Below, piece after piece: positions 11,041-29,376 of a DNA stretch of 29,522 nucleotides. The stretch comes from a virus. Where the stretch lies: IMG/VR virus record IMGVR_UViG_3300030419_001047, positions 1 through 29,522 of that record. One strand, 5' to 3'. How positions within the stretch are numbered: position 1 is the first letter of the stretch; every line of letters starts with the position of its first letter. The notes beneath the pieces are model-generated. The model had not been told where the DNA came from and searched no databases. It saw only the letters and a list, made by a program, of their open reading frames with translations. A program made the position numbers and the translations under genes.

Positions 11041-11487
11041 TTAGGCTGCTACCTCTTTTTTTGATTTTTCTTTTGGTGGTTTTTTACGAATGGCAGTCCA
11101 GAAATATGTTACTTCTTCTCCTTCTTTGCCCTCGTCAAATATAACTTTCCATATTTCTATATAATCGTTGTCATAGAAAGGTCCTGAAAACTCTAGTTTA
11201 ATTAGCTTAGCCAGTACAGGTTGTGGAAAAGTAATGCACTTTTCTTCAAATATCTTTCTGATATAAGCTTTTTGTCCCTCTTCTAGACTTTTTAGATAAG
11301 TTTTGTATAGATCTAGCTGTGTATCCAGCTTATCGCAGACTTCATATATTGCTACTACTTCTGCATCTTTTTTGTCGTATACTACTGCATCGGATACTGT
11401 ACAGCAAACTAATCCCAAAGTCAAGAGAAAAGTGCATGTAAACTTAAAAAATCTATTCTTTACTTTCTGTAGGAGGGTGTGATCCAT
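11041..11487 (-). CDS. Exported protein or lipoprotein, possible outer spanin
   Basis: This is a 148-residue protein. A basic n-region (KVKNRFFK, 8-15) and hydrophobic core (16-29) form a signal peptide. It ends in LVCC (26-29), which is close to a lipobox with Cys29 as the modified residue, although Cys at -1 is unusual. The mature part is mixed helix and strand, with a Lys-rich end. The start lies 35 bases inside the preceding gene in another frame, with AGGA 7 bases before the ATG. An overlapping pair made of a membrane-anchored coiled coil followed by a lipoprotein is the arrangement of inner/outer spanins, which fuse the two membranes at lysis. Against this, classical outer spanins are shorter and Pro-rich. 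I am confident of export, not of the role. Confidence 0.5.
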   Translation of the reverse strand: MDHTLLQKVKNRFFKFTCTFLLTLGLVCCTVSDAVVYDKKDAEVVAIYEVCDKLDTQLDLYKTYLKSLEEGQKAYIRKIFEEKCITFPQPVLAKLIKLEFSGPFYDNDYIEIWKVIFDEGKEGEEVTYFWTAIRKKPPKEKSKKEVAA

Positions 11488-11803
11488 TGTGCATCCTATG
11501 TATGTTGTCTAGCTCCCTTTCTATTGAATCTAATCTCTGAGCTACTTTGCCATCTCGTTCTGATTGTTGCTTTAGTATCTGTGGAGATAAGATATCTTTA
11601 CTCATTGTGTCGATTGCTGCTATTGCTACAGCTTGTTTAGCTTCTACTTTATCTAGCCTTTGATTGAGGCTGGCTAGATCTTCGCTAACTGCGTCTAGTG
11701 TTGCAGTGATAGATTTTATCGTAGCCTTTAGTACTCCCCATGTAGTAGCTATACCTGTTAACACTATTCCAAATGTTACTATTTCCCTTGGCCCAAGTTC
11801 CAT
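11453..11803 (-). CDS. N-terminal membrane-anchored coiled coil, possible inner spanin or holin-like
   Basis: This 116-residue protein has one transmembrane segment near the N-terminus (about 7-26, IVTFGIVLTGIATTWGVL), then two coiled-coil stretches (about 30-66 and 80-105) and a short hydrophilic tail. The ATG overlaps the stop of the 52-residue Cys-rich gene as TAATG, with GAGG just upstream inside that gene, so translation is probably coupled. Topology and the overlap with the downstream exported protein fit an inner spanin. XhlA-type haemolysin-like proteins (TM plus coiled coil) are an alternative. No family-specific motif decides between them. Confidence 0.5.
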   Translation of the reverse strand: MELGPREIVTFGIVLTGIATTWGVLKATIKSITATLDAVSEDLASLNQRLDKVEAKQAVAIAAIDTMSKDILSPQILKQQSERDGKVAQRLDSIERELDNIHRMHNGSHPPTESKE

Positions 11804-11974: not shown

Positions 11975-12463
11975 TTACCTTTTTGCATACATTATAAAAA
12001 GCCATAGACCACCAACGATAACAACTACAGCAAGAATACTACCTAAAAATTCTAATATTTTGGCCCATCGTTTCTTTGATATTCGTCTTTTTGCTTCGAG
12101 AGCCTCTTCATATTGTTTCTTTTTTTCATCTCTGGTTATTAGTATGTACGCCCAAGTATCTTGACCAAACTTTCTATTTAACAGGTATGAAATTCTATCT
12201 ATGGCCTTTTGAGCTTCTTTTTCCTGAATTGTTTCTGTGATAGCCATCTGAAGAAAATTATCAGAGGTTACACCTTTTATTAAACCACCCCACTTACTTG
12301 CAATAGGATGAGCTTTTTTCTTTAACTGCTCTTGCCCTTTAAAGACGTTATCAATTAGTCCTGCTATCTCTGACACATCTTCAGTAGTCTTGAGAGCCAT
12401 TTTTATGGCTTTGCAACTCTGCTGAACTAGCTGTAGTCCAAAAAGTGTTTCTGCAACGACCAC
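11975..12463 (-). CDS. C-terminally membrane-anchored protein, unknown function
   Basis: This 162-residue protein has a helical, Lys-rich cytoplasmic-type body and a single strong transmembrane helix near the C-terminus (about 137-158, LGSILAVVVIVGGLWLFIM) followed by YAKR. The start is GTG at 12463, placed by GAGGA, which forms the tail of the 31-residue gene just upstream. The overlapping ATG one base away is in another frame. The stretch before the helix (KRRISKKRWAK) is very basic and would hold the body inside the cell by the positive-inside rule. It lies between two tiny Cys-rich genes and next to probable lysis genes. A tail-anchored lysis regulator or pinholin-like protein is conceivable, but I do not recognise a family. 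Confidence 0.5.
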   Translation of the reverse strand: MVVAETLFGLQLVQQSCKAIKMALKTTEDVSEIAGLIDNVFKGQEQLKKKAHPIASKWGGLIKGVTSDNFLQMAITETIQEKEAQKAIDRISYLLNRKFGQDTWAYILITRDEKKKQYEEALEAKRRISKKRWAKILEFLGSILAVVVIVGGLWLFIMYAKR

Positions 12464-12465
12464 AT

Positions 12466-12561
12466 TTATTCCTCTTCATCTCTGCAGTTACAGTCTTCGC
12501 AAACGCAGTTTTCACACTTCTTTTCACAGTGGCAGGGGTGTTCACAGTGAATACAAGTCAT
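12466..12561 (-). CDS. Metallothionein-like micro-protein, 31 residues, 9 cysteines
   Basis: The ATG at 12561 starts two bases after the TGA of the large adhesin gene, and the frame ends two bases before the GTG of the next gene, filling the gap exactly. The 31-residue product has cysteines at 3, 6, 10, 12, 16, 19, 21, 24 and 26 (29 percent Cys), histidines at 5, 8 and 11, and an acidic end (RDEEE). The CxxC/CxC pattern is that of metallothioneins and other metal-thiolate peptides. A weak AAAGG lies about 11 bases upstream. The last codons GAA GAG GAA overlap the ribosome binding site of the next gene. It is small enough for ordinary gene finders to miss. Coding status rests on the exact fit in the gap, on cysteine periodicity and on the shared motif with the 52-residue neighbour. 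Confidence 0.6.
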   Translation of the reverse strand: MTCIHCEHPCHCEKKCENCVCEDCNCRDEEE

Positions 12562-12563
12562 GG

Positions 12564-15557
12564 TCATACTGCCTTTGCAGGTGTAACACCTGACCCTGCT
12601 ACACCGCCTCTTCCTCCAAAAGGCGATTCAGCCCAAGCGCAATAAATAAAATTTGCAGATCCAGAATAGTCGGTAGTTCGACACTTAAAACCGTTGCTTA
12701 AAAAATCAATTTCTTCACTGCCTGTTGTTTCTGCTGCCGAAGAATCTATAAGCAACTGATCATCTGTTTCATTAAAAGAACTTCTGCTTCGGTCATACAC
12801 AAACCAATTTCCAGTGCTACTTATTTTTTTTATCCAAACCAGCGCAGGTCTAAAAGAAAGTTGCACCAGTGCGCCATTGTCATGGCCGTTGCCACGAAAC
12901 GTGCCGAAGTGACTGAAGCCATCCACACTTTTCCAGCAATAAAGATAGTAGACTTGACTGGAACTGTTAAACGTGGTGCTGGTTCCAAAACTTACAACGG
13001 TTGACGTGGGTGCTGTTGAGTTAAATGCAGTGCTGGATGTAGCCTCTGCTCCATTAGTATCTAAAACCAAATACCCTGTTGTCGCATTAGCCAAACTTGA
13101 ATGATACACTGGCGTGAAAGTGGATGATTTATCGGTATGCTTGAGTATGAAAAAATCAGGTGCGCCTGATAGCCCATGTCCAACCGTAGCGTTAGCTCCA
13201 GTTCCCGTCCATTTTGAGATTGAAAAACCGTTATCGCTTGAGACAATTTGGCTGGTTGTGTTTATCGAACCGTTCTCGTTGTCTTGACTTGCACCCCCAC
13301 CAGCAGACCAGCAATAAGCTACAAAGCGTTCCCCTGCATCGTTAAAGCCTCCTGCCCCACTACCTAGTGTAAAGCCGTCTGTATTAAATGCGGTCAGTGA
13401 ATTTGAGTCTGTGGCTATGTTTGCATCATCACTAGGCAACCAAAAACTTTCTGCTGTTTGCACTCTATCAAATGCCTTCCAGTGGTCAGCTTGATCTCTG
13501 TTTTTGATAAACACAAGGTCGGGTTTGAAAGTTGAAACAGCACGATCATTATCCGTGGGCTTCACTCTAAAATCAAATTCGTTCCACATGGTTGAATTAA
13601 CGCCATTGCCGTTTGTATTTCGACACCTGTAGTAAATATACGTATCGTTAGCACCAATTAAATTCATACTAAGAACGTCCATCACTGGGGCTGAGGAGAA
13701 GTCTTTTGTTCCACTGATGGCTGTCCAGGTTCCACTGGTATCATTGGTTGCTTCGAAAATCCAACTATCACCCATGTTCCCACCAGCAGATTGTCTATGA
13801 ATAATTATTTCTGTAATGTTAACAGCTTCAGGAAATTGAAAACGAATTTCCATATCCGTTGCGAAACCACTATAACCAAAGCCATCAGTACTACCATAAC
13901 TTCCATTGACCAATTCTTCGTAATCACTTTGAAAAGTAGTGCCACCTGTCACAGATACGATAATTAGTTTTGATCTATCTCCCGAACCTAACCTGTGGCC
14001 GTAAGAATTGCCTCCCATCACAATTTGGTTAGTAGCTCCAGTTCCCTCGTAGGTAATTACTTGAAACGCACTTGTGGGATCTGTAAAGGACGGTACTGGT
14101 AGATTGTCTGAGTTCAATTTTTTAAAACCACTAGGTATGTCAATTTGATCCAGCAAAGTTCCTTGACCAAAATCAACCAGCCCATTTCGTCCACTATAAG
14201 TTGCAACCCCCCAATAATATGGCGGTGTATCAAGTGTAAAACTTGGGTTTGTTCCGTTGGCAGGATCGCCATCAAAAGATGTGGAGCTACCAGCCCATTG
14301 CGTAGTGCCTGCACTATCGTCATAATATCCAAACCACAGTTTATTATTGTCAAAGTCCATTGCTACCAGATGCATATCATCAGAGCCATAGGTAATTGAA
14401 ATACTTGTAGACCCACCATTCGTAAGTTTTGCGAAGACGCTTGCGCTATCAAAGGATGCTTCAAATCCGTCTGCATCGATGTATGCGTAGTGGGTGGTTC
14501 CATCGCTTTCTTGCATATGCTTCCAACCGTCCTGATTCACAACCCAAGGGTCGCACTGTCCAGCACCGCTTGTGGAGGGCTTCGTACACCAGACCCACTT
14601 TCCAGAACTAAAGCCACCAAAAGATGCTCCAGCGTTATTAAAGACAACTAGTTCAGTACCAGCAACTTTTAGGTTGCCTTCAGATAATGTGACTGTTCCA
14701 CCGCCTTCGGACATAATCTCCGACAAAGTACACCAGTTAAGGGTAGGCGTATCCGTTGTTTGGTCGCTAGAGGTAATATTATTAACCGTAAAATCATTGC
14801 CATTTCCAGAGACATCTTTACCAAGATCGCTACTGTCAGCAAAATCAAGTTTGTAACCAGTTGTTCCATACGTTACAACAGGCGTTTTCGGAACCCATAC
14901 GCCGTTAGCATTAAATTTTCCAAATGAATCTGGGCCTAAAGTACTGCCATCAACGAAGCAGACTTCAGCCATGTAGCCATCGTAAAAAATACCAGACGAA
15001 ACATTGTAATTACCCCATTGTTGCTCAACAGTATTGGCAATGGCTAGGTCAAAGTCTTCTGCTATTGCCGTGTAAGTGCTAAACTCTTGTTCTTGCCGTC
15101 CATTCACGTACAGCTTCATTCTTTCGGTACTGGTAGCATTCTCTGTATCAAAGGCTATTACAAAATGATACCAAGCGTGGGTATCTCGAAATTTTCGGGT
15201 TGTTATGTAAGAATATGTGCCACCAGACAAATTCAATTTAAGTGTATTATTTGAACTTAGCTCAAAATAGTCAATGGCCCCTGAACCCATTGCACTAAAA
15301 AATACCATCTGTTCGGAAATATTTCCCCTCTTTAACCAGAACGAAAAAGTGCTGGAACGTCTATTACCTGCACCACTGGGTGTGCGGTCTAGAGTGGGTG
15401 AGTCATCATCATTAAAGATGACAGCGTTTCCTACTGTAAGATCAGCTTCTACACCTCCTCCTGCACCAAAACCTATATAACTACCATAGAAGTAATCACA
15501 TAGTCTGTTTTGTTCTTGAGGAACGAGTAGTGAATTTTTATTACGTTTAAGCGTCAT
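12564..15557 (-). CDS. Large tail adhesin with LamG-, SPRY- and discoidin-like domains
   Basis: In this 997-residue protein, residues about 45-205 look like a LamG/concanavalin fold (SFWLKRG, AWYHFVIAFDT, KLYVNGR, YMAEVCFVDG). YKLDFADSSDLG...SGNGNDFTVNN (235-260) is a linker familiar from marine phage tail proteins. About 290-470 resembles SPRY (GKWVWC, YYWGVATYSG). About 500-670 has discoidin-like traits (EIRFQFPEAVNITEIIIH, ATNDTSGTWTAI). From about 675 there are repeated KPDLVFIKNRD / FRPALVWIKKIS modules ending in CAWAESPFGG. These are carbohydrate- and protein-binding folds, so host receptor binding at the tail is the likely job. The gene overlaps the upstream fibre gene by 11 bases. G+C is visibly higher than around it, suggesting recent exchange. 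Confidence 0.72.
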   Translation of the reverse strand: MTLKRNKNSLLVPQEQNRLCDYFYGSYIGFGAGGGVEADLTVGNAVIFNDDDSPTLDRTPSGAGNRRSSTFSFWLKRGNISEQMVFFSAMGSGAIDYFELSSNNTLKLNLSGGTYSYITTRKFRDTHAWYHFVIAFDTENATSTERMKLYVNGRQEQEFSTYTAIAEDFDLAIANTVEQQWGNYNVSSGIFYDGYMAEVCFVDGSTLGPDSFGKFNANGVWVPKTPVVTYGTTGYKLDFADSSDLGKDVSGNGNDFTVNNITSSDQTTDTPTLNWCTLSEIMSEGGGTVTLSEGNLKVAGTELVVFNNAGASFGGFSSGKWVWCTKPSTSGAGQCDPWVVNQDGWKHMQESDGTTHYAYIDADGFEASFDSASVFAKLTNGGSTSISITYGSDDMHLVAMDFDNNKLWFGYYDDSAGTTQWAGSSTSFDGDPANGTNPSFTLDTPPYYWGVATYSGRNGLVDFGQGTLLDQIDIPSGFKKLNSDNLPVPSFTDPTSAFQVITYEGTGATNQIVMGGNSYGHRLGSGDRSKLIIVSVTGGTTFQSDYEELVNGSYGSTDGFGYSGFATDMEIRFQFPEAVNITEIIIHRQSAGGNMGDSWIFEATNDTSGTWTAISGTKDFSSAPVMDVLSMNLIGANDTYIYYRCRNTNGNGVNSTMWNEFDFRVKPTDNDRAVSTFKPDLVFIKNRDQADHWKAFDRVQTAESFWLPSDDANIATDSNSLTAFNTDGFTLGSGAGGFNDAGERFVAYCWSAGGGASQDNENGSINTTSQIVSSDNGFSISKWTGTGANATVGHGLSGAPDFFILKHTDKSSTFTPVYHSSLANATTGYLVLDTNGAEATSSTAFNSTAPTSTVVSFGTSTTFNSSSQVYYLYCWKSVDGFSHFGTFRGNGHDNGALVQLSFRPALVWIKKISSTGNWFVYDRSRSSFNETDDQLLIDSSAAETTGSEEIDFLSNGFKCRTTDYSGSANFIYCAWAESPFGGRGGVAGSGVTPAKAV

Positions 15558-21190: not shown

Positions 21191-21865
21191 TTAGTGTGCG
21201 TTATCAGGAAGTTCCGTACCATCCTTACTTAATTTTAACTTTACGTTGAAACTAAAAGATCTACGTTCCCCTTTAGATTTAAAAGGATAAACACAATGTA
21301 ATAAATATGCAGGAAATAGATAAAAATCTCCTACTTCAGGCTTTATTAATTGGTTATGGGCATTAAACAGTGCAGGTGTTCCATGCTGAAATTCTATATG
21401 CCCTACACAAGGATAATTATCTTTGTAATCTTCTTTCCACTCTTCTTCAATATCTTCTGGCATTTTTAAATACCCAACTGCAGAAAGATCACAGCCTGTA
21501 TGCATATGGTTAGGATTAAAATCTCCAGGAAAAGTTCTAACGAACCAACCAGATAAGTAATGTATATTGTACACAGAATTTTCAGGGCGTTGCCTATTTA
21601 AAAAATCATCATTCCAGTTTAAATATTGTTCAATGGTAAAATTAAAAAAATCTTGATATTTTGAAAAAACTTCTTGAGGAATACTAAACTCTTCTTGTAC
21701 TTTTCCTACGAGATTAGCAGAATAATCTCTCTTTTTTAATTCTTCTTTATCTTTAATAACTCCATCTGCTGAAGTATTAAAGGCATCTATTAGTTCCTGT
21801 GGCATTTTAGAACGTGCCATACTAGGACCAAAAGGACGTATAATTTCTACTTTTTCAGGTCGCAT
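21191..21865 (-). CDS. 2-oxoglutarate/Fe(II)-dependent oxygenase
   Basis: This 224-residue protein ends in the cupin half of the 2OG-Fe(II) oxygenase fold. NPNHMHTGCDLSAVGYLKMP (117-136) supplies the first metal histidine (H122, or H120) and possibly D126. PEVGDFYLFPAYLLH (176-190) gives the distal histidine H190, and ERRSFSFNV (200-208) gives the 2-oxoglutarate-binding arginine. This pattern is known from phage and bacterial 'putative 2OG-Fe(II) oxygenase' proteins, many in cyanophages. The substrate is unknown; the acidic ligand is less certain than the histidines. It lies between head and tail genes, behind a terminator-like hairpin and with a weak ribosome binding site, so it is probably made at lower level than the capsid protein. 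Confidence 0.75.
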   Translation of the reverse strand: MRPEKVEIIRPFGPSMARSKMPQELIDAFNTSADGVIKDKEELKKRDYSANLVGKVQEEFSIPQEVFSKYQDFFNFTIEQYLNWNDDFLNRQRPENSVYNIHYLSGWFVRTFPGDFNPNHMHTGCDLSAVGYLKMPEDIEEEWKEDYKDNYPCVGHIEFQHGTPALFNAHNQLIKPEVGDFYLFPAYLLHCVYPFKSKGERRSFSFNVKLKLSKDGTELPDNAH

Positions 21866-25195: not shown

Positions 25196-25681
25196 CTATG
25201 CCAAAAACAAATTATAAAATTCTCTATTACGATCCTCTAGTTCTCTTACTTCTCCAGAGGGTGTACGATAATATCTTTTGTACTCTTCTCTCATACCGTC
25301 TATGTCACCGTACACTGTTGCAGTTACGAATTTAGGAAACTTACGAAGACCATTACTGCCAAGATTAAAAACAAAGTCAGTAAATATTTCTTGGCAGTGT
25401 TGAGGTAGATCTTCAAAATTATCGCTTCCGTACTCGTTAATGACCTCTGCTGCATTTTCCGAAGCAGAGAAAATATCTTGATACAAAAGTCTTTCATTTT
25501 CTTCATCTGAAATTCCTTCTTTCATCCAATCTTCGCTGTCAAGTAGCTTATGGCCGTATCCTATCGTATCGTTTCCTCCTTCTGGTGATGGATGAGGAAA
25601 CCAAAATCCATCTGTGTATCCTAACTTAGCTCCGTTTTCTACTCGCTTAATGTAGTCTACAAATTCTCCTCGTACCTCCAT
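25196..25681 (-). CDS. Endolysin, GH24 (T4-type) lysozyme
   Basis: This 161-residue protein is counted from the ATG at 25681. The catalytic Glu is E15 (KRVENG), followed by D24 in LGYTDG and the family hallmark DTIGYGHK (38-45), which contains the catalytic-region T39. The T4 triad is E-D-T, and all three appear present. The conserved C-terminal segment FTDFVFNLGSNGLRKF is also seen. It cleaves the MurNAc-GlcNAc bond of peptidoglycan at lysis. There is no signal peptide, so it needs a holin. Start choice: ATG at 25681 overlaps the upstream stop as TAATG with AAGGGGG before it; a TTG two codons earlier is possible but less likely. It lies before the head genes, far from the holin. Confidence 0.88.
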   Translation of the reverse strand: MEVRGEFVDYIKRVENGAKLGYTDGFWFPHPSPEGGNDTIGYGHKLLDSEDWMKEGISDEENERLLYQDIFSASENAAEVINEYGSDNFEDLPQHCQEIFTDFVFNLGSNGLRKFPKFVTATVYGDIDGMREEYKRYYRTPSGEVRELEDRNREFYNLFLA

Positions 25682-28600
25682 TACCAAAGACCCCCTTCGT
25701 CACCACTGTATCCACCACCTTCTCCACCAAAACTACCTGCATCTGCACCTGCAGCGTCAGAAACTCCTGCATCATCATCAATTACGGACTGTGCTACTAG
25801 ACCGCCAGCTTGGGCTGCCAGTTCTTCTAGGTCTGGTGCTGTTGGAGGTGCAACAGGAATGGGTTCATTACCTCCTCTGGTTTCAGGATCGTAAGGCTCT
25901 ATGTCAACTGGAGCAAGAGGGTCTTTACTGTCATCTGGTGTTAACTTAATTTCTCCTCCAAAAATGTCAGCAGCAGCATCCTTAATAAACTCCAATACGG
26001 TTGGAATAGGACCTGCTGTGCCGATAGCTCTTGATGTTTCTCTACCTATATATGCTGGTGTCGGGTCGCCTCGTACAGTTACGACTGTTCTTCCAGTCCT
26101 TGCAGTAGCTCCTGCAAATTGATCACGACCTAATAGGCTTTCTATTTCTTGTGAATACGTAGGCACTTCTTCCTCGAAAGTTTTTCCTTCCCAAAATACT
26201 TCATCGTCTGGATCTACTTTACTAAGCAACTCTTGTTTATCTTTATCCCTAAAAATGTATTTAATAGTGCCACCAATCATATGCATAGAATCTTGTATTA
26301 ATTCCTTAGCCAGATTTTTTAAGCTGTCTTTATTTTTAATCTCGTTTTGTGATAGCAATTTACCTTTATCGTTCCTAACTTGAATTTCTGTATCTTTATT
26401 AACAGATATACTATTTGATTTTACTGATTCTCCTACCTTTGCAGTTACTGCAGCATTAGTAATTTCTATTCTATTACCGTCAGGTGTAAGCACTACTGCA
26501 TTATTACCACTTTTACTTTCTACTTTTCCATTGATAGTTTGTGTTTGATGTATATTTTCTAAGTTAGTATTTTTAGGTGCTGGTCGGGCTAAAGAAAGAG
26601 GCTGTCCTGCAGGACTTCTAAAGTCTTGTCCCTTTGCTGAATCTCTTCTCAACTCTGCATCTGAAGGGTCTACTTCAGGGTCTGGTTCTTTTGCTGCATC
26701 TATTCTATATTCTTCTTCAGGAGATAAATCTAATAGTCCTTCTGGCATAGCAAATTCTTTTGATTGAAAATCTCTTGTAGTAACCGCTTTATCTCCAAGA
26801 CCTCCTATAGTAGTCATGCCTCCAAAATCTGCAGGTCTATCGGGCAACGTAAATTCAGAACCCTCAATCTTCTTCACTTCGCTAGGTAAATAACGGTCAT
26901 CTGTTGCAGGTTCAAATAGATCAGCAGGTTCAAGTCTATCGGGCAACATAAATTCAGAACTAGGTTGATTCATTTTTGTTACACTATTTACGATAGTTTG
27001 CATATTACCAGCCAACTGACTTCTAGCCCGATTAAAAAGTTCTCTATTTTTATATGTTGTAATATCTACGGTATCTCTCATATTTTTTAATTGGTTCTCA
27101 ATTATATTCATACCGTCTCTAATCTTTTCTACAGTATTGACTGCGCTTTTGGTAGGGTCTTTTGAAAAATTTACTGCCCCTTCTAAAAGAGTAGACAAAT
27201 TCTTTTCGCCACTTACGCTTCTACCTTCAACAATCTCTTGATCCATAGCGTATGCGTCTGGAAAAAGAGGTACTTCTTCGTCAAAAAGAGTTTGTATAGT
27301 TTTATCTACTTTCTCTGAAGCATCAGCAATACTGACAACAGGATTGTTTAAAAGTTTTGGGTCTACATTTTCACCAAGATAAACTGATCTAGCCACTGCT
27401 TCTATAACTTTTTTATCTAGGGTAGTTCCCAAGACCCTAAGCTGGCCTAACTGTGATGTATATTCTTTATCTCTAGGATCAAATCCAAAAGCTGTAAATG
27501 TTCTGCCTGTTAAGTCTCTAGCTGTTTGTGCTATGTCTGTAGCCTCTTGGTTAAATCCTCCGTAGTTAAATTCAGAAGCACCTACCACAAAATCATGCCA
27601 TTGTTCTGCTGCTACAGAGTTAGGGTCCATCATATCAGAATAATCTTCACTCTCTAAGTTTTGATCTGTAAAAGCCTTAAAATTTTTACCTGCATCTCTT
27701 AAAAAGTCTCTTACCATTTTAGGACTAAATTCTGTAGTATAGTCATCAAAATTTTGATAGGAAGCCCTTGGATTTAACATACTCCAAGGTTGCAACCCCG
27801 ATTCATTAAAAGCTACAAAATAATCATTAAAGTTATTATAGTACGTCTCGATAGCAGGTTTGTGAATGTTTCCAACTTCTTGACTTAACTCTGCAATAGG
27901 TGTTTGGTCTGATAAACCTAGTCTTTGTGCGTGATTACTTAGTACACTAAGTATATGTTCACTAGCTTGAGCCTGTTCGGGATCTGTGTATAAAAGATTT
28001 CCGTCTGTAAAATGACCAGACATATCAAAATAAGACGACACACTAGGCATATTTTTAAGATCTGCCAGCGTCACATTAGGAAATTCTTGTGCAAATGTAT
28101 TAAGGTTAAAAGACGTATTCCACTTGCCACTAAAACTTTCTCCATCAATAGTAGTGCCTGTGTTAACATAGTTATCTATACCATTAGAATACGTTGCTGT
28201 ATCCTCATCATATTTAAACCCTCCTACCTGAGCAGCAGAAGCAAGTCTTTCATATCTGTCTTTTAAATCAGGATAATAGTCTGTAAAATTTCTTGCTCCA
28301 TATTGTATTGAGCTAAATACATCTCCTACAAAAGGAGTCATTTTCATAAGGGCAGTTATAAATCCTGGATACACAAGATTTTGATTTTCGTCTAGCACGT
28401 AGGATATTTTTCCATGAGCAAGATCTATGGAAGTAACATCTGGAATAGCTGCTCCGTATGTAAACACATTACCAAGACCTTTAAGAGCACTTACAGGGTC
28501 TGTTATAAACTCTGCTACTCCTTTTACTCTATCTCCTATTTCATCTTTTAAATTAGTAAAAAATTCTTCTGGAGAATTTGCACGAGTAAACATTCTACCA

Positions 28601-29376
28601 AGGTTTGTACCCACGTTATGTAAAACTGTAGCAGCACCAAGCCCACTAACAGTAGATGGCACACTGTTAAAATTAGTAATATCAGAAAACGCTTTTCCAG
28701 CGTCAATTGCTTGTGGAACACCAAGCAACACAGAATTGTTAAAAAAGTTTGTAGCTACGTTTTTTGATACGTCTGCAAAATTTTGTCCTCCCACTGTAGT
28801 AGCTCGTACTACATTTGTAAGAAGATTTGCTGTGCCTACGGCTCCTCTGGTAGTATCTGTAGCAAGAGGAGATATTTGATTACTTGTACCTGCAAAATCA
28901 GCTAATAAATCTATAGGGGTTGTTGTCTGTCCAGTGTCAAAAGTTCCTTCTATAGGATCAAAAGTATTTGCAGCCGTTCTAGCAACAAGAGGATCTAAGG
29001 TACTAAAATCTTGTAAAGGAATGTCTTCAAAAGTTTGTTTAAACACAGGTACTTCTGCTTGGCTTACTGAAGCACCAGAATCAATAAAGTCAGACACATT
29101 TGACTTAAATGCCTGTACAGAAGCAGCATTTCCACTTTGTAAATCTTCTACAGCTTCTATAAGTTCCGTATTTGCTCCTGCAGAACTAAGACTATTTACA
29201 AACGGTGTGTTTTTCTTTTTCTTTTTGCCACCAATAGCAGCTATTTCTAGCGAACCACCTACACCACCCTCTACGTCAATATTACCTTCTGGAAGAGTTT
29301 CTGTAACGCCTTTTGGCCCTCCAGTTAAATTGCTTATCTGATTAGCTAGGGCTTCTTGGTTTATTGGTGTTGTCAC
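25681..29376 (-). CDS. Large phage protein of unknown function, 1231 residues
   Basis: I do not recognise a family. The N-terminus has a Lys-run (GGKKKKKN, about 49-56), then a long Ser/Thr/Asn/Ala-rich region (60-350) with amphipathic helices. The middle is helical (350-760). Around 806-880 three blocks recur at 33-residue intervals (EFMLPDR, EFTLPDR, EFAMPEG). A small beta-rich stretch follows (about 930-990, GKVESKSGNNAVVLTPDG), and the end is Gly/Asp-rich (GGGYSGDEGGLW). There is no catalytic motif. The start is GTG at 29376, with AAAGGA upstream. It sits between a probable portal-side gene and the endolysin. Size and position suggest a virion or ejection-associated protein, but that is inference. 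Confidence 0.5.
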   Translation of the reverse strand: MTTPINQEALANQISNLTGGPKGVTETLPEGNIDVEGGVGGSLEIAAIGGKKKKKNTPFVNSLSSAGANTELIEAVEDLQSGNAASVQAFKSNVSDFIDSGASVSQAEVPVFKQTFEDIPLQDFSTLDPLVARTAANTFDPIEGTFDTGQTTTPIDLLADFAGTSNQISPLATDTTRGAVGTANLLTNVVRATTVGGQNFADVSKNVATNFFNNSVLLGVPQAIDAGKAFSDITNFNSVPSTVSGLGAATVLHNVGTNLGRMFTRANSPEEFFTNLKDEIGDRVKGVAEFITDPVSALKGLGNVFTYGAAIPDVTSIDLAHGKISYVLDENQNLVYPGFITALMKMTPFVGDVFSSIQYGARNFTDYYPDLKDRYERLASAAQVGGFKYDEDTATYSNGIDNYVNTGTTIDGESFSGKWNTSFNLNTFAQEFPNVTLADLKNMPSVSSYFDMSGHFTDGNLLYTDPEQAQASEHILSVLSNHAQRLGLSDQTPIAELSQEVGNIHKPAIETYYNNFNDYFVAFNESGLQPWSMLNPRASYQNFDDYTTEFSPKMVRDFLRDAGKNFKAFTDQNLESEDYSDMMDPNSVAAEQWHDFVVGASEFNYGGFNQEATDIAQTARDLTGRTFTAFGFDPRDKEYTSQLGQLRVLGTTLDKKVIEAVARSVYLGENVDPKLLNNPVVSIADASEKVDKTIQTLFDEEVPLFPDAYAMDQEIVEGRSVSGEKNLSTLLEGAVNFSKDPTKSAVNTVEKIRDGMNIIENQLKNMRDTVDITTYKNRELFNRARSQLAGNMQTIVNSVTKMNQPSSEFMLPDRLEPADLFEPATDDRYLPSEVKKIEGSEFTLPDRPADFGGMTTIGGLGDKAVTTRDFQSKEFAMPEGLLDLSPEEEYRIDAAKEPDPEVDPSDAELRRDSAKGQDFRSPAGQPLSLARPAPKNTNLENIHQTQTINGKVESKSGNNAVVLTPDGNRIEITNAAVTAKVGESVKSNSISVNKDTEIQVRNDKGKLLSQNEIKNKDSLKNLAKELIQDSMHMIGGTIKYIFRDKDKQELLSKVDPDDEVFWEGKTFEEEVPTYSQEIESLLGRDQFAGATARTGRTVVTVRGDPTPAYIGRETSRAIGTAGPIPTVLEFIKDAAADIFGGEIKLTPDDSKDPLAPVDIEPYDPETRGGNEPIPVAPPTAPDLEELAAQAGGLVAQSVIDDDAGVSDAAGADAGSFGGEGGGYSGDEGGLW
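26835..26960 (-). repeat. 99-base-spaced direct repeat inside the 1231-residue protein gene
   Basis: Twenty-seven bases at 26835-26861 and 26934-26960 are identical except for one position. Both code for SEF(T/M)LPDR in the same frame. The 99-base spacing equals 33 codons, and a third, more diverged copy of the peptide (KEFAMPEG) lies another 33 residues downstream. This looks like internal duplication with selection on the EFxLPDR peptide. Confidence 0.7.

Follow-up and report, generated by a model that had tools for sequence, protein, structure and literature searches.

We find that a nine-cysteine peptide gene, carried by the viral DNA analyzed here (29,522 nucleotides, positions 1 to 29,522 of IMG/VR record IMGVR_UViG_3300030419_001047; hereafter the window), is a genuine gene under purifying selection and is one member of a family that comprises at least 133 distinct short peptides across viral contigs (patterns pooled). 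The reading that we favor, and hold to be rather probable, is that this is a late gene in a marine podophage of the HMO-2011 type, whose product would be a cytoplasmic metal-thiolate peptide working like a metallothionein. The initial annotation had pointed to a single peptide; the finding is larger, i.e. a whole phage family.

A nine-cysteine gene under purifying selection

The shorter of two possible frames encodes MTCIHCEHPCHCEKKCENCVCEDCNCRDEEE, with Cys at positions 3, 6, 10, 12, 16, 19, 21, 24, and 26 and His at positions 5, 8, and 11 (Table 1). Gaps of two bases flank this frame, one to the end of the upstream stop (12564) and the other to the GTG start of the downstream gene (12463). 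The frame, both gaps, and the positions of the nine Cys and three His are all as the initial annotation described them. A second in-frame ATG, at 12567, lies two codons upstream and overlaps the TGA of the upstream gene as ATGA, making a 33-residue peptide (MTMTCIHC...) possible. The core of the peptide consists of an N-module (C-x2-C-x-H-x-C-H-C), a linker with one Cys, and a C-module (C-x-C-x2-C-x-C).

The 997-residue upstream protein matches Pfam PF24299 (E 1.5e-77) and PF13385 (E 1.3e-11). Relatives of the 162-residue downstream protein are encoded on 14 viral contigs, and none was found among the phage isolates searched. The two overlapping small genes further downstream could form a spanin pair.

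Table 1. Coordinates of the peptide gene and of other genes in the window
Feature	Position	Strand	Basis or remark
Nine-Cys metallothionein-like peptide gene, 33-aa form	12466..12567	minus	sequence, purifying selection, profile match
Nine-Cys peptide gene, 31-aa form	ATG 12561-12559, TAA 12468-12466	minus	31 codons
Cys/His core of the peptide	12484..12555	minus	alignment A1, ligand count, unique in window
Upstream gene, 997-aa tail/adhesin-like protein	12564..15557	minus	LamG and DUF7483 domains
Downstream gene, 162-aa protein	11975..12463	minus	hydrophobic C-terminal segment
Two overlapping small genes	11041-11487 and 11453-11803	minus	in one, a hydrophobic N-terminal segment plus a coiled coil (weak resemblance to XhlA / phrog_25947); in the other, a lipobox-like start
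Holin, GTA_holin_3TM family	111-515	minus	PF11351 E 6.8e-13; holin by phrog_3427; some 11 kb away from the peptide gene
2OG-Fe(II) oxygenase among structural genes	21191-21865	minus	PF13759 E 2.6e-18
Phage lysozyme	25196-25687	minus	PF00959 E 1.8e-7, TTG start predicted

In 100 dinucleotide-preserving shuffles, the exact spacing of the nine Cys never appeared, and the window itself contains it once. To avoid bias, homologous loci were found through the downstream neighbor gene and not through the peptide, and in 6 of the 14 neighbor-carrying loci (L122, L123, L124, L126, L127, and L128) the peptide is present at the same site with the same tight spacing. Across these six loci and the window, all nine Cys and all three His are invariant, with synonymous changes in 7 of the 9 Cys codons and in every His codon, and the amino acid differs at 10 of the 21 non-Cys codons. 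The group dN/dS, a check that the initial annotation had proposed, is 0.042 and thus indicates purifying selection (Nei-Gojobori counting, based on small numbers and on pairs that are not independent). For example, the peptides of L122 and L124 are identical to that of the window, with 2 and 3 silent changes, respectively, and the neighbor protein has changed. Pairwise counts at Cys codons over groups found by pattern were not taken as proof, since such codons are fixed by the pattern; the neighbor-found set was used instead, together with the C-module, which the search pattern did not require.

The view of the initial annotation that a phage gene had been overlooked is borne out by this selection and by the lack of any database annotation. 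That the frame is open by chance, or that the DNA is retained for another cause such as a regulatory signal, would suit its very short length, its tight fit between two genes, and its absence from databases, but a dN/dS of about 0.04, Cys and His that stay invariant despite synonymous changes among loci that the pattern played no part in finding, the 133 distinct listed peptides in differing gene contexts, and a reversed pattern without matches leave this reading with hardly any probability, and a chance frame is already contradicted at the sequence level.

The peptide family and its distribution among marine phages

The family shares a two-part motif, C-x2-C-x-[HC]-x-C-H-C and C-x-C-x2-C-x-[CH], joined by a linker of 6 to 18 residues in the 133 listed peptides, and the window peptide fits this motif, including a linker with Cys or His. 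The pattern T-C-x-H-C-x-H-x-C-H-C finds 47 viral contigs vs. none for its reverse, the looser C-x-H-C-x-H-x-C-H-C yields at least 120 matches in viral contigs, and a nine-Cys pattern with family residues gives 95. Among the 78 distinct, nonspurious matches listed for the loose N-module pattern, 76 also have the C-module, which this pattern does not require. An alignment of 41 representatives (A1) has seven invariant Cys, and the window peptide, itself a training member of that alignment, matches the family profile with an E-value of 2.7e-14. A plain nine-Cys pattern run on viral contigs was of little use, returning mostly poly-Cys repeats and frames with stops and few family members.

When four family peptides were searched by tblastn against phage isolates, no match emerged; low-complexity masking strips most of the query score for three of the four, as shown locally, and DNA patterns, neighbor genes, and the profile were therefore used instead. 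With the profile, matches are found in 11 of 15 phage records, and in none of 398 Pseudomonadota genomes at an E-value of 1e-5. A pattern search of cellular genomes (84,980 species), which covered family members with His at core position 6, returned three matches, all rejected, i.e. two Cys-His repeats and one short frame lacking the C-module, whose genome shows only a weak partial match to the profile (E 0.002). The family is thus widespread in marine phages, and the cellular genomes examined yielded no member.

The loci span several unrelated phage groups, including the HMO-2011-type phage of the window, two pelagiphage-related groups, and others. The coat protein of the window (G + C = 38.9%) shares 54.5% identity with its counterpart in pelagiphage HTVC033P and 43.6% with the one in HMO-2011, and the late-gene order of the window is similar to that of HMO-2011-type isolates; by this homology and gene order, we assign the window to an HMO-2011-type podophage. 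None of six isolates of this type carries a copy of the peptide, either in their late regions or in whole records searched with the family profile. The late block of HTVC033P encodes two 2OG oxygenases and, according to its annotation, a ferrochelatase. One of the pelagiphage-related groups is related to HTVC023P and HTVC027P (portal about 49-52% identical) and the other to the small phages HTVC111P, 112P, 202P, and 026P (portal 56-57% identical).

A profile search of the whole records of 14 isolates reveals one member, in HTVC023P, an isolated SAR11 phage whose host is Pelagibacter HTCC1062. This copy is unannotated and lies between gp44 and gp45, at 29080-29166 by the profile (E 7.8e-7) or 29083-29169 as a frame (L376:2584-2670). 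No ATG, GTG, or TTG occurs there from the upstream stop to the core, and translation of the copy may begin in another frame within gp44 or at a rare start codon.

Of 347 flanking genes of at least 80 residues, 339 share the strand of the family member, which places the peptide gene inside operons. These neighbors include portal, methyltransferase, GroES-like, and tail genes. One frequent neighbor (c1) was considered to be the same holin as the PF11351 protein of the window, which BLASTP did not support. At three loci (L310, L322, and L357), a 620-residue protein that resembles a CHASE2-adenylate cyclase by eye is encoded upstream of the family member.

The gene also comes and goes among related phages. 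In L125, the peptide is missing at the neighbor locus, where a remnant resembling the end of the frame is found (gatgaagaggattaa), and a related copy lies elsewhere on the same contig (MVCIHCEHLCHCSEEKCNSCSCNYCNCREETVEDTNNE). A relocated second peptide type, CIHCEHLCHCS[EK]EKC..., was seen at L125:489-602 (plus strand) and in L177 near 2438 (plus strand), and the phage of L127/L177 has both types, about 5 kb apart. In L129-L135, where the neighbor protein is more distant (64-67% identity), no copy occurs at the site or elsewhere in the loci fetched, and for L129, L131, L133, and L135 the absence was checked by profile in their records. The initial annotation had held that related loci without the frame would speak against the peptide. 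Such loci do occur in part, i.e. L125, which lost it, and L129-L135, but decay is not what they indicate: in the copies present, the Cys are invariant and changes fall at third positions. Together with the second family member of L125, this argues for an accessory gene that is gained and lost.

Ligand pattern and candidate functions

Among the 133 listed peptides, core position 6 is His in 87 and Cys in 46, and nothing else. Core position 9 is His in 131, and the last core position is His in 69 and Cys in 57, i.e. one or the other in 126. In seven peptides, a His takes the place of the missing linker Cys. When Cys and His are counted at the core ligand positions and in the linker, their sum is 10-12 in all 133 peptides and exactly 11 in 98, and the window peptide likewise has 11 ligand-type residues, formed by its nine Cys with His 8 and His 11. 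Some ligand positions were fixed by the patterns used for collecting, and the free evidence is found in the C-module, the linker residue, the last position, and the neighbor-found set. His cannot replace Cys in a disulfide, and the interchange of the two at two core positions therefore speaks against disulfides and for coordination of metal, with zinc the foremost candidate. As an argument from composition, the ligand pattern points to metal coordination.

In the reading that we favor, the 11 ligands of the window peptide would hold a cluster of three to four metals, most likely zinc, and this cluster would fold a peptide otherwise lacking a core. The peptide would be translated with tail and lysis genes, probably coupled to the upstream gene, and its position among these genes suggests late expression. 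No signal sequence is visible, which suggests that the product stays in the cytoplasm, where, under reducing conditions, its thiolates and two His could bind metal, giving a small buffer or reservoir of zinc (or of copper or cadmium), probably during host protein turnover and phage protein synthesis. We infer metal binding, its stoichiometry, and the buffering role from ligand conservation and count. The initial proposal of a metal-thiolate peptide thus stands as far as sequence hallmarks go, i.e. invariant Cys, His/Cys interchange, and a near-constant ligand count. Several points count against a metallothionein-like function: the gene is absent from many relatives and is thus dispensable, the peptide matches no metallothionein family, and a zinc-folded adaptor would give much the same conservation of ligands.

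Such an adaptor is the main rival and, in our judgment, an unlikely one. Here, structural zinc would make the peptide a rigid scaffold presenting a tail, charged or aromatic, that binds a host or virion protein and inhibits or redirects it. Many small phage proteins act by binding host proteins, and a conserved tail past the last ligand, NALD[DE]F[WY], is present in 32 of the 133 listed members (e.g. L205:2203-2334 and L242:4011-4163). This tail looks like a binding motif and counts against a pure metal buffer, which would not need it; smaller subfamilies have other conserved tails. By contrast, the tail of the window subfamily is only short and acidic (RDEEE), the 10-12 ligand-type residues within a stretch of about 24 to 35 are more than one or two structural sites would require, and the spacing between modules varies freely.

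We regard as improbable that the peptide is a redox or disulfide peptide, either a thiol partner of lysis or membrane proteins or an exported, disulfide-rich, toxin-like peptide. For 54 of 124 peptides, a membrane- or lysis-type gene (c1, c10, or c12) is indeed present no more than three ORFs away, a raw count without a background rate in which peptides were told apart by their first 36 residues. However, other neighbor genes are equally common, no signal sequence is visible, and Cys/His interchange at fixed positions is incompatible with disulfide chemistry. The suggestion of the initial annotation that the peptide partners nearby membrane or lysis proteins is accordingly unsupported, with portal, methyltransferase, GroES, and tail genes also nearby.

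A slim chance likewise attaches to an iron-sulfur or copper-specific site, in which the Cys would hold an Fe-S cluster or Cu(I) in place of zinc. The CxxC and CxC motifs of the peptide are also found in Fe-S and Cu(I) proteins, but its conserved His and the Cys/His exchange would suit zinc better, judging from ligand counts.

If the metal-thiolate reading is extended to the family as a whole, the peptides could represent a virus-borne class of metallothionein, without cellular homologs, that has moved by gain, loss, and relocation among unrelated and abundant lineages of marine podophages and manages zinc or copper during infection, a proposal that we put forward tentatively and rate as somewhat short of probable. 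If true, this would be a previously unrecognized metal-handling step in the life cycle of phages of SAR11 and related hosts. The family is overlooked by usual annotation because its members are very short, are masked by BLAST as low complexity, and have no family model. HTVC023P and Pelagibacter HTCC1062 form a cultured pair with a member of the family, making a direct test possible.

Relation to known metallothioneins and zinc proteins

The window peptide and the 133 listed members have the traits of the metallothionein class, being small and Cys-rich, with CxC and CxxC motifs and few hydrophobic residues. No model in Pfam, PHROG, or NCBIfam matches the window peptide, and Pfam scans of this peptide and 40 relatives gave no match to a metallothionein family; the weak Pfam matches scattered among these 41 members are not convincing. 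Specifically, PF02069 (Metallothio_Pro) matches none of 11 phage records, including the window, at an E-value of 1 or below, vs. a control that matches four genomes, including that of Synechococcus elongatus. By this profile, the peptide is not a member of PF02069, the SmtA/BmtA family. A full-text literature search found no phage-encoded metallothionein, and the main text of papers on HMO-2011-type and HTVC023P-type phages makes no mention of metallothionein.

A profile search of PDB sequences found nothing. The predicted model of the peptide, modest in confidence (mean pLDDT 80, pTM 0.38), has no match among PDB folds. It is metal-free, which for such peptides makes it weak evidence, also with regard to the zinc-finger-containing fold of SmtA (1JJD).

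Small zinc fingers of the CCHC-knuckle type resemble the phage peptide in their Cys/His ligands and very small size. Matches to retroviral nucleocapsid knuckles in the PDB (E 0.25 and 1.8) are not convincing, the phage peptide has no significant match to such proteins in sequence or fold, and its family has 10-12 ligand-type residues compared with 4 per site in zinc fingers.

In mammalian metallothionein, the beta domain holds M3Cys9 with nine Cys in about 30 residues, and the alpha domain holds M4Cys11. The phage peptide is like the beta domain in size, Cys density, and its CxCxxCxC stretch, and like the alpha domain in its ligand number of 11. It differs from both in having His ligands, another spacing, and no Pfam match, and the likeness is probably convergent.

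Differences from the bacterial proteins SmtA and BmtA lie in length (31-33 residues for the window peptide compared with 56 for SmtA), in the order of motifs, in a phage family without homologs in the cellular genomes searched, and in the missing profile match. By contrast, the phage peptide shares with them a short chain without a signal sequence, Cys in CxC and CxxC motifs, and His as extra ligands. The core of the zinc metallothionein SmtA is Zn4Cys9His2 (PMC10119931), and the nine Cys and two conserved His of the window peptide correspond to this same set of ligands.
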